A stretch of 64,000 nucleotides of DNA from an uncultured Nitrospira sp. (GTDB lineage: Bacteria; Nitrospirota; Nitrospiria; Nitrospirales; Nitrospiraceae), in contig CABVSR010000004.1 of the NCBI GenBank assembly GCA_902500995.1, positions 1-64,000 of the forward strand. Direction: 5' to 3'. Positions 33,907-64,000 of this stretch are shown one piece after another. Made by a program: the position numbers and the translations under genes. Under the pieces are notes generated by a model, which was not told the origin of the DNA, made no database searches, and was given only the letters and a program-made list of their open reading frames with translations. Each line of letters opens with the position of its first letter. Within the stretch, counting starts at the first letter, position 1.

Positions 33907-34033
33907 TCCCGGATGCTCAAACGGACCATCCAGCAAGGCCGCAGCGAGAGAAGAGGCGAGACGTACTGGGCTTGTACGTTGAGCCTCTGATCGATGCGAG
34001 AACGGAGCTGGGGGCCCGTTTCAGCATCCGGGA
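33907..34033. repeat. 127-bp palindromic repeat, copy A
   Basis: Outer arms of 21 bases (33907-33927 and 34013-34033) match in 19 positions as an inverted repeat. The exact centre is a second stem, ACGTAC / GTACGT (33961-33966 and 33974-33979). The internal segment CAGCAAGGCCGCAG is shared with the other copies. The right end abuts the TAG stop codon of yajQ (34034-34036). Confidence 0.85.
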
Positions 34034-34531
34034 CTAGCGGTAGTTAGTGAACTGCAAATCAATCCCAAAGTCTTTGCCCTTGAGGAACGCGATTGCCGAC
34101 TGCAGATCATCCTTGCTCTTGCTGATCACCCGCACCTGTTCACCCTGGATCTGCGCCTGGACCTTCAGTTTGGATTCTTTGACGGCCTTGGTAATCTCCT
34201 TCGCCTTCTCCGAGGAAATGCCGCTTTGAATTTTGATCACCTGGCGAACCGTGGCCCCGAGCGCCTCCTCGACCTTGCCGTACTCGAATGCTTTCAAGGA
34301 GACTCCGCGCTTCACGCACTTCGACTTGATGATCTCAATCACCGCATTGAGCTTATAATCGTCGTCGGAGAGCACGACGAGTTCTTTTTCTTTCTCCTTT
34401 AAGGTGAGCTCGGTTTTCGAGTCTTTGAAGTCGAACCGCTGCTTGATTTCCTTCGTCGCCTGATCGACGACGTTTTTCATTTCCTGCATATTCACTTCCG
34501 ACACCACATCGAATGATGATTGGTCAGCCAC
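34034..34531 (-). CDS. yajQ: YajQ family nucleotide-binding protein (UPF0234)
   Basis: A 165-residue cytosolic protein with two ferredoxin-like domains. It matches the family closely: [20 protein letters not shown] at the N-terminus, [13 protein letters not shown], and [11 protein letters not shown] at the C-terminus. Some YajQ proteins bind cyclic di-GMP and act with LysR-type regulators; others are only known as tRNA/nucleotide binders. Start is GTG 34531 with GGAGG six bases upstream. The nearby PilZ gene is another possible c-di-GMP reader, but no operon link exists. Confidence 0.94.
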
Positions 34532-58740: not shown

Positions 58741-58867
58741 GCAGGCTGTTGAGAAATGTTGTCCAGCAAGGCCGCAGGAAGCACGGCGACTGAGGCGTAC
58801 CCGCTGGGTACGTCGCAGGGAGACGTGCGACCGAGAACGCCGCTGGCGGCATTTCTCAACAGCCTGC
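58741..58867. repeat. 127-bp palindromic repeat, copy B
   Basis: Perfect 18-base terminal inverted repeats GCAGGCTGTTGAGAAATG (58741-58758) and its complement (58850-58867). The exact centre is a perfect CGTACCC-GCT-GGGTACG hairpin (58796-58812). The last base is the first base (C of CTA) of the complement of the TAG stop of the SCP2 gene. The rest of the 58669-58740 gap holds nothing recognised. Confidence 0.9.
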
Positions 58868-59211
58868 TAGGGACGGAGGCTGGGGAAGAGCGACGCCAGT
58901 TGCATCGCCAGGCCCATGTCCCCGCTGATACGGAGTCGGCCGGTCATGGCGATCATGGTGCCGCTGAGCTGGCCGTTCAACACCCGTAGACAATCCTCAC
59001 CCGACATCGCCAGCGTGACATGCGGGTCCGGATGCACCCCATCGGTGACCTGGCAAGCGCCGTCCCTGATCTGCAGTTGGTACTGTCCCCCGTCGACTCC
59101 GCTCAAATCGAACTGGTAGACCACGTCCAGCCCTTCGGCCGCCTCAGGATCCAGTTTGTCTGCGAGGGTAGAGAAAAACTCGCGGACGGTGGTGGGTGGT
59201 GATGGTGTCAT
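58867..59211 (-). CDS. SCP2 sterol-binding-domain protein
   Basis: About 114 residues from ATG 59211 (MTPSPPTTVREFFSTLADKL); a start at 59235 is also open. It is a single SCP2-like fold: VVYQFDLSGVDGGQYQLQI, DPHVTLAMSGEDCLRVLNGQ and GRLRISGDMGLAMQLASLF. Such domains bind hydrophobic ligands such as lipids or acyl chains. The ligand is not known. It follows the speD-like gene after 60 bases, and repeat copy B begins at its stop codon. Confidence 0.85.
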   Translation of the reverse strand: MTPSPPTTVREFFSTLADKLDPEAAEGLDVVYQFDLSGVDGGQYQLQIRDGACQVTDGVHPDPHVTLAMSGEDCLRVLNGQLSGTMIAMTGRLRISGDMGLAMQLASLFPSLRP

Positions 59212-59271
59212 GATTTGGGGCCCCGGCAGAAGCACAGACCCCGCCGGGGCCGAGTTCCAGGAGGGAGTGAT

Positions 59272-60067: not shown

Positions 60068-60194
60068 GCCGCAGCACGATCCTGGTCGTCCATCAAGGCC
60101 GCAGGAAGCACGGCGACTGAGGCGTACCCGCTGGGTACGTCGCAGGGAGACGTGCGACCGAGAACGCTGCTGGCGGCCGCTTTCATCGGCCTGC
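60068..60194. repeat. 127-bp repeat, copy C with a decayed left arm
   Basis: The central 84 bases (60092-60174 region) differ from copy B at about two positions and keep the CGTACCC-GCT-GGGTACG centre (60123-60139). The left arm no longer pairs with the right arm. The right end coincides with the TAG stop of the reductase gene (60194-60196). Confidence 0.85.
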
Positions 60195-60913
60195 TACTCG
60201 TCGTAATATTTTTCGCGATAGATCGGACACAATCCCTTGGCATTGATCCGGGCCGTCACATCCGTAATCATCGCGCTCCCCCCGCAGAGATATATCGCCA
60301 GATTGTCGACGGATTGGATCCGCTCATCGAGCAGCGCCGTCACCCGTCCGGTCACCCCCTGCCAGCCCGGCTCCGGCCTGGACAGCGTCGTCACCACGGT
60401 AAATCGGGGATATGCGGCAGCCAGCGTCGCCAGTTCATCCTGCCAATAAAGATCACGCTGGCTGCGCAGTCCCCAGAACAGTGTGACCGGTCGGTCCGGC
60501 TGCCGGTGCAATTGCGCCAGAATCATGCTGCGCATCGGCGCGATGCCGGTTCCTGTGGCGATAAACACCCGCGCTCTCTCCCCGTCGTCTCGCAAATAAA
60601 ACGCGCCCGCAGGCCCCTTGAACGAGGTCCGCTCCCCTTGGCGTAGACGAAACAGGTAGCTCGAACCGGGCCCACCCTGGACGAGGTTCAGGACGAGCAG
60701 AATCCGATCATCCTGCGCCGGCGGTGAGGCGATGGAATAGGGCCTGGTGACGGGGCGAGGCTGCCCTTCCTTCGGCACCTCGAAGGAGACAAATTGCCCG
60801 GCCTTAAAGGTCATCGTCGGTGGATCCAGTACACGCAGTTCAATCGCCCGCACGTCATGCGTCAGATCCTGAATCCGGCACACTTCAGCCGTGTATGTAT
60901 TCACGGCATCCAA
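60194..60913 (-). CDS. FAD-dependent ferredoxin/flavodoxin reductase-like oxidoreductase
   Basis: A 239-residue FNR-superfamily protein. FAD domain (residues 1-105) with RPYSIASPP, then the NAD(P)H domain with FIATGTGIAPMRSMIL and LYLCGG-like AIYLCGGSAMI. No 2Fe-2S domain is present, so it should pass electrons to a separate carrier. The frame begins at TTG 60913; GTG 60904 is an equally good start and neither has a strong Shine-Dalgarno. Electron acceptor unknown. Confidence 0.85.
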   Translation of the reverse strand: MDAVNTYTAEVCRIQDLTHDVRAIELRVLDPPTMTFKAGQFVSFEVPKEGQPRPVTRPYSIASPPAQDDRILLVLNLVQGGPGSSYLFRLRQGERTSFKGPAGAFYLRDDGERARVFIATGTGIAPMRSMILAQLHRQPDRPVTLFWGLRSQRDLYWQDELATLAAAYPRFTVVTTLSRPEPGWQGVTGRVTALLDERIQSVDNLAIYLCGGSAMITDVTARINAKGLCPIYREKYYDE

Positions 60914-63885: not shown

Positions 63886-64000
63886 CGAATCGAAACGCGG
63901 CCTTGCCCAAGGCAAGGCCGCAGCAAGTGAGAGGGCGCGGCGTACGTGTCCGATACGTCGAACCCTGGAACGACGCGAGCACGCCGCCGAACATCACCCT
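63886..64000. repeat. Diverged 127-bp repeat, copy D, cut by the window edge
   Basis: Shares CAAGGCCGCAG, GGCGTAC and TACGTCG with the other copies at matching spacings. The centre CGTA / TACG (63941-63957) predicts an element of 63886-64012. An additional 11-base hairpin GCGGCCTTGCC-CAA-GGCAAGGCCGC lies at 63897-63921. Confidence 0.6.

Follow-up and report, generated by a model that had tools for sequence, protein, structure and literature searches.

Two palindromes of identical length lie 25 kb apart in DNA of an uncultured Nitrospira species, and their arms differ in sequence and yet pair. The locus thus raises the question of what kind of element these palindromes represent, how copies of that element come to lie where they do, and what keeps their arms complementary. 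Here we address these questions for the 64,000-nucleotide stretch that contains the two palindromes (the window), for the genome to which the window belongs, and for related genomes.

The palindromes of the window end at stop codons

Copy A (33907-34033, + strand) and copy B (58741-58867, + strand) are, as an earlier note on this DNA had reported, both 127 bp long, with outer inverted arms of 21 nt (90% matching) and 18 nt (100% matching), respectively. The note's claim of further copies also proved correct: the window contains a complete third copy at 60069-60196 (+ strand), with an intact core and a diverged left outer arm, and a core fragment lacking the outer arms at 63911-63988 (+ strand), which stands in tandem with another complete copy, at 64011-64140, immediately outside the window. 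Copies A and B each score 122.9 bits with a covariance model of the family, and the third copy scores 80.6 bits. Head-to-tail tandem copies with a period of ~130 bp, such as those from 63911 to 64140, occur also at G000:C34:5093-5485, C39:70-328, and C9:35516-35773. A search of the window against Rfam gave no match above the gathering score.

For all three window copies that have a right arm, the right end coincides with the stop codon of a gene on the - strand. Copy A, which comprises a middle arm, a core, and a right arm, is followed by CTAG at 34034-34037, an instance of the target motif YTAR, in which CTA is the TAG stop codon of a gene for a 165-aa protein (34034-34531, - strand) that we take, from the likeness of its sequence, to be yajQ. 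The right arm of copy B, CATTTCTCAACAGCCTG, ends at 58866 and is followed by CTAG at 58867-58870, in which CTA is the TAG stop codon of a 122-aa gene (58867-59235, - strand). The third copy is followed by CTAC at 60194, which supplies the TAG stop codon of the gene at 60194-60913 (- strand).

The palindromes belong to a large family in Nitrospiraceae

A BLAST search with copy B yielded 54 matches in the 3.97-Mb genome (best non-self E 7e-40), and a covariance model built from 36 copies yielded 108 matches at E<=0.01, a number that includes a few reverse-strand echoes of the palindrome and corresponds to ~100 real copies. Both searches show the window copies to be members of a genome-wide family. 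The same model yielded 116 matches in Candidatus Nitrospira defluvii and found matches in 137 of 296 sampled Nitrospirota genomes, including nearly all genomes of the family Nitrospiraceae, to which the window belongs; most matching Nitrospiraceae genomes have at least 11 matches each. A complete genome of the same genus (G143) provides a copy-poor comparison, with only 2 matches versus at least 11 in its relatives, and with no IS5 relative. An exact-pattern scan of GTDB genomes returned, among the matches listed, only records that are by title Nitrospira or relatives, apart from one Nitrosospira-titled record, which derives from a binned metagenome. Searches of viral, phage, and plasmid collections returned no match to the hairpin family, and a search of the literature on Nitrospira repeats and MITEs found no description of it. 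RepRanger places N. moscoviensis among the genomes with many REPs, and that REP count may in part comprise these hairpins.

Some copies carry extra sequence inside the hairpin (L289, L297, and L309; in N. defluvii, C1:1821007-1821197, 3604381-3604571, 650179-650369, and 1447923-1448113). Some of the extra-sequence copies seem to move as a larger unit, 271 bp long in L359, that contains an insert able to form a hairpin, GGTTCACGACGCGC...GTGAACGCC.

The hairpin forms the right side of a longer, 199-bp unit

N. defluvii contains ~11 near-identical copies that lie at unrelated places in the chromosome and that have ~100 nt in common to the left of the core. These young copies exhibit one sharp left border and one sharp right border, with divergence beyond; the left border, YTAR-CAGGTTGCGGAAAAACTC, and the right end, GACTTTTTCCGCATCCTG-YTAR, are inverses of each other. 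The full unit is 199 bp long and consists of a left terminal repeat (CAGGYTGCGGAAAAACTC), a spacer of ~60 bp, and the 127-nt hairpin, which ends in the inverted repeat; it contains no transposase gene of its own. A second N. defluvii group, of six copies, has identical ends and another spacer. Among 278 copies, drawn from many species, roughly one in four has the left-end motif 97-102 nt to the left of the core, and 80 full-length copies have a modal length of 199 bp from CAGG to CCTG. Identical 4-bp flanks are found in 35 of the 80 full-length copies, as compared to 14 expected by shuffling (maximum of 25 in 1000 shuffles), and these flanks are mostly CTAG, TTAG, and CTAA, all of the form YTAR.

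The palindrome of the earlier note is therefore real but constitutes only the right-hand part of a 199-bp element, with its right end at a gene stop codon. The left terminal repeat and spacer are absent at copy A, and none is recognisable at copy B; the two retain the right repeat and arm only. At copy A the left part has been lost, since the next coding region starts ~22 bp to the left. We treat copies A and B as probable truncated derivatives, that is, relics of the family and not complete members of it, and we assign them to the family through the common hairpin and right end.

The unit has the ends and target duplications of resident IS5-family elements

In a genome-wide search of two genomes, the end motif occurred once as an inverted pair, in N. 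defluvii, with a distance of 1.3 kb between the two. The 1.3-kb IS so delimited has ends CAGGCTGCGGAAAAACTC, with TTAG on either side, and encloses a 342-aa IS5-family transposase (L354:1149-2177; NF033581 transpos_IS5_4, E 4.5e-83, 278.9 bits with a cut-off of 140; DUF772 and DDE_Tnp_1). The ends of the full-length MITE (CAGGYTGCGGAAAAACTC and inverse) recur, over 17-18 nt, in IS5-family elements of N. defluvii and relatives. Across the genus, IS copies have ends of two types, CAGGCTGCGGAAAAAC and CAG(TG/GC)TGTTGACAAAC, with exact YTAR duplications in most intact cases (TTAG, CTAG, and CTAA), and MITE copies having left ends that match either type occur. The genome containing the window has one IS of the second end type (C45:3116-4177), with CTAA on both sides. 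Any match to the N. defluvii transposase is found in 12 of 29 genus members, most of which have no close relative of it; the abundant hairpins in transposase-poor genomes could be leftovers of earlier activity.

Dispersed palindromes that lie beside a short fixed motif and contain no obvious internal gene are also the mark of REP/REPIN-like elements, moved by a RAYT-type Y1 (HUH) transposase, and insertion adjacent to a tetranucleotide gave an HUH-like impression as long as only part of the unit was known. We tried and rejected this origin by searching the genome containing the window, and the phylum, for PF01797 (Y1_Tnp) and by examining the surroundings of Y1 genes for the hairpin. Neither that genome nor several copy-rich relatives contain a PF01797 match, a hairpin copy is near just 1 of 40 Y1-transposase loci in the phylum, and the true terminal inverted repeats and 4-bp duplications point to a DDE enzyme, which makes a REPIN/RAYT origin highly improbable. 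A related candidate, IS200-like insertion 3' of YTAR without duplication, was replaced by 4-bp duplication once the left terminal repeat was found.

The ends and YTAR duplications in common with resident IS5-family elements identify the unit as an IS5-type MITE. We conclude, with a probability of roughly 85% and on the basis of sequence comparison, that the palindromes are mostly old, left-truncated copies of a non-autonomous IS5-type MITE, probably moved by an IS5-type transposase. The earlier note had offered two readings, a miniature, non-coding, possibly mobilised element and a structured 3'-end RNA element; near-identical dispersed copies, IS5-like ends, and YTAR duplications support the first, and the second is supported in part (see below). 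According to the IS5-type MITE hypothesis, an IS5-family DDE transposase, supplied by separate IS copies having the same ends, probably recognises both terminal repeats and, as the common ends and duplications suggest, would insert the unit into YTAR with duplication of 4 bp; many of the tolerated insertions would lie exactly at stop codons, leaving the protein unchanged; and, following insertion, the left part would often be lost and the hairpin could persist for the age of the genus.

YTAR targeting accounts for the position at stop codons

Tolerated insertions are often at stop codons because YTAR contains TAG or TAA. Among 110 copies with a nearby convergent stop codon, 66 have the stop codon at one exact offset (in element orientation), and the stop codon at that offset is the TAG or TAA contained in the right-end YTAR. 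The window has 17 YTAR stop codons versus 12 wholly intergenic YTAR sites, and random YTAR insertion filtered by gene damage therefore predicts frequent stop-codon sites, in either orientation. With these sites counted, special targeting of stop codons, which we also considered, became superfluous. Full-length copies at stop codons have the hairpin side at the stop codon in 19 cases and the other side in 8, a modest bias.

Arms vary in sequence and remain paired

Covariation of the arms, which had been claimed from the window copies, is observed in the larger alignment of 36 copies, in which pairing passes every shuffle and slide control. In a structure-free MAFFT alignment (A1), 95.0% of cells are paired, as compared to 79.8% with shuffling and 33-45% with partners slid, where the tested structure was predicted from A1 itself, which favours the observed over the slid versions. 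Both-sided change is observed in 27 of 39 pairs of A1, and none of 500 shuffles reaches any observed measure. On the left the conserved sequence is CCAGCAAGGCCGCA, the tip conserves CGTAC...GTACG, and the right side conserves GAGAACG..GCTGG; the conserved core letters CAAGGCCGCA and GAGAACG are unpaired.

The interpretation of the arm differences as compensatory change holds insofar as pairing is kept as arms vary, but double changes in the outer stem occur mostly without one-sided intermediates: columns 8/129 have 15 both-sided versus 0 one-sided changes, and columns 11/126 have 11 versus 0. Terminal repeats vary from one subfamily to another, and the middle arm agrees in sequence with the right repeat. 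The outer-stem pattern fits subfamilies with different terminal repeats, together with concerted change, better than it fits stepwise RNA compensation.

One form of concerted change is arm-to-arm copying, in which template switching between arms (quasipalindrome correction) maintains the palindrome and pairing is a mutational by-product. Some such copying is suggested by an outer stem nearly without one-sided states and by complementary insertions in two orthologues: behind the orthologue of the gene at 60194-60913 in L308 and L311, each arm contains a long extra segment complementary to that in the other arm (ACCCGCCCAACCCC... / ...GGGGTTGGGCGGGT), a pattern such as the copying of an insertion from arm to arm might produce. 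As the process that maintains the palindrome, however, copying appears doubtful: almost every copy retains a C.C mismatch (A1 columns 13/124) in arms that otherwise match, and internal loops keep their sequence, whereas correction should erase both; moreover, one-sided G-T states are numerous at mid-stem pairs (9, 7, and 12 sequences). Three causes thus fit arms that differ and yet pair: subfamily terminal repeats, re-paired arms in orthologues (for example, GGATGGTGAAACAGG/CCTGTTTGACCATCC versus GGATGCTGAAACGGG/CCCGTTTGAGCATCC among yajQ orthologues), and some arm-to-arm copying.

The position of the C.C mismatch is occupied by G in the terminal repeats used for transposition, so that the middle arm resembles a terminal repeat inactivated at a single base. 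We propose that this one-base change may prevent the middle arm from serving as a transposition end.

The hairpin persists at orthologous loci

Comparison of orthologous loci, which the earlier note had suggested, established that a hairpin is present at the same stop codon in many species (this hairpin or a related one, at three loci) but did not resolve the duplication base by base: no empty/filled site pair close enough for this was obtained, the species that lack the element at yajQ (L283 and L285) being too distant. The loci were picked because the genome containing the window carries a hairpin there. Of 26 genomes of the genus, ~22 have the hairpin after the yajQ stop codon, with a conserved core and re-paired arms; two genomes are empty and two have halves. 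At the gene at 60194, the hairpin is present in most of 27 genomes, and several have a remnant or none. The left part of the MITE is absent throughout at both loci. Orthologues of the gene at 58867 are mixed: a hairpin of this family follows some, a related 181-bp hairpin with ends GAGTCTGTCCGAGTCAT follows others, still others have a hairpin with CCCGGATTATTCATGAA ends, and several have none. The 181-bp hairpins form a second family, present in L388, L401, L410, and others, with YTAR flanks and core motifs in common with the first; those with ends CCCGGATTATTCATGAA form a third.

Between distant yajQ pairs, element identity is 0.72 versus 0.56 at four-fold sites. Hairpin identity is 0.84 versus 0.63 for the short spacer beside the hairpin. 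Conservation above that of four-fold sites and spacer argues for constraint on the hairpin, at loci picked for the presence of a hairpin in the genome containing the window. Retention presumably means that the hairpin is useful or harmless as the 3'-end structure of the adjacent gene, or that its palindromic arms keep repairing each other.

The retained hairpin may serve as a 3'-end structure

The proposal of a structured 3'-end RNA element is upheld in that old copies lie directly behind stop codons with a fold kept across the genus; it is not upheld as to strand, mismatches in orthologous sets exhibiting no strand preference (GT 6 versus AC 11; 6 versus 4). As an addition to an IS5-type MITE origin, we consider it possible, at somewhat less than even odds, that the hairpin has been exapted as a 3'-end structure (an mRNA stabiliser, processing site, or transcription barrier) with its fold kept by selection. 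Retention behind the yajQ stop codon with identity exceeding that of four-fold sites, presence at the 60194 gene in most genomes, the different but related hairpins directly behind the stop codon of the 58867 gene in several species, and the conserved unpaired core letters are consistent with exaptation, as is a strand bias by replichore in N. defluvii (74 of 95 older copies, versus an unbiased 10 of 21 for the youngest, with origin and terminus assumed at 0 and 2.15 Mb). Against it, no U-tract follows the hairpin on the gene strand, so that it is not a classical terminator; the precision at stop codons is already accounted for by YTAR targeting; and retention could be neutral. Selection on a + strand RNA was rejected: G-T exceeds A-C family-wide (96 versus 13 in A1; 347 versus 61 in A2), but many of these mismatches are in conserved tip columns, and the asymmetry is gone within orthologous sets.

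More speculatively, the hairpin core may be common to several MITE families with different repeats (CAGGYTGCGGAAAAA; GAGTCTGTCCGAGTCAT; possibly CCCGGATTATTCATGAA), all YTAR-flanked, and may constitute a portable, stop-codon-docking 3'-end module that has repeatedly been exchanged at given gene ends and preserved through selection on the host; we regard this as rather unlikely.

Relationship to known repeat families

ERIC elements of enterobacteria are imperfect palindromes of ~127 bp with many dispersed intergenic copies; the comparison with the Nitrospira hairpin covered length and general shape, the host group is different, and the Nitrospira 127 bp are part of a 199-bp unit with ends of known type. 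Correia elements of Neisseria, like the Nitrospira MITE, are high-copy MITEs, with hairpin-forming ends, but duplicate TA and carry promoters and an IHF site, whereas the Nitrospira MITE has a 4-bp YTAR duplication and a long internal hairpin. REPIN/BIME elements with RAYT are alike in having inverted-repeat hairpins in many copies per genome; the Nitrospira hairpin differs in having no Y1 transposase partner and in having DDE-type ends and duplications. ERIC copies at gene 3' ends in Yersinia change transcript levels, and RNase III cuts transcripts of Correia elements at their repeats (review, PMC10969869). According to the excerpted account of MITEPsy1 of Pseudomonas syringae (PMC3189936), that element is an IS5-derived MITE of 100 bp, present in few copies, with 18-nt terminal repeats and a 4-nt duplication of CTAG or YTAA; like the Nitrospira MITE it is non-coding and has ends resembling those of a resident IS5-family element, and the excerpt reports no conserved hairpin core. 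The Nitrospira MITE differs from MITEPsy1 in having ~100 copies per genome, phylum-wide occurrence, a core of 127 nt that is structured, and prolonged persistence at stop codons.

Our results identify a family of structured, dispersed repeats with which Nitrospiraceae genomes are saturated, with few exceptions among those sampled, and YTAR targeting provides a simple rule by which its elements sit exactly at stop codons without harm to the gene. An IS5 transposase with defined ends is a possible tool for Nitrospira, which are hard to manipulate genetically. Species that differ in whether a given gene is followed by the hairpin provide a natural experiment on whether transposon hairpins become functional mRNA 3' ends.
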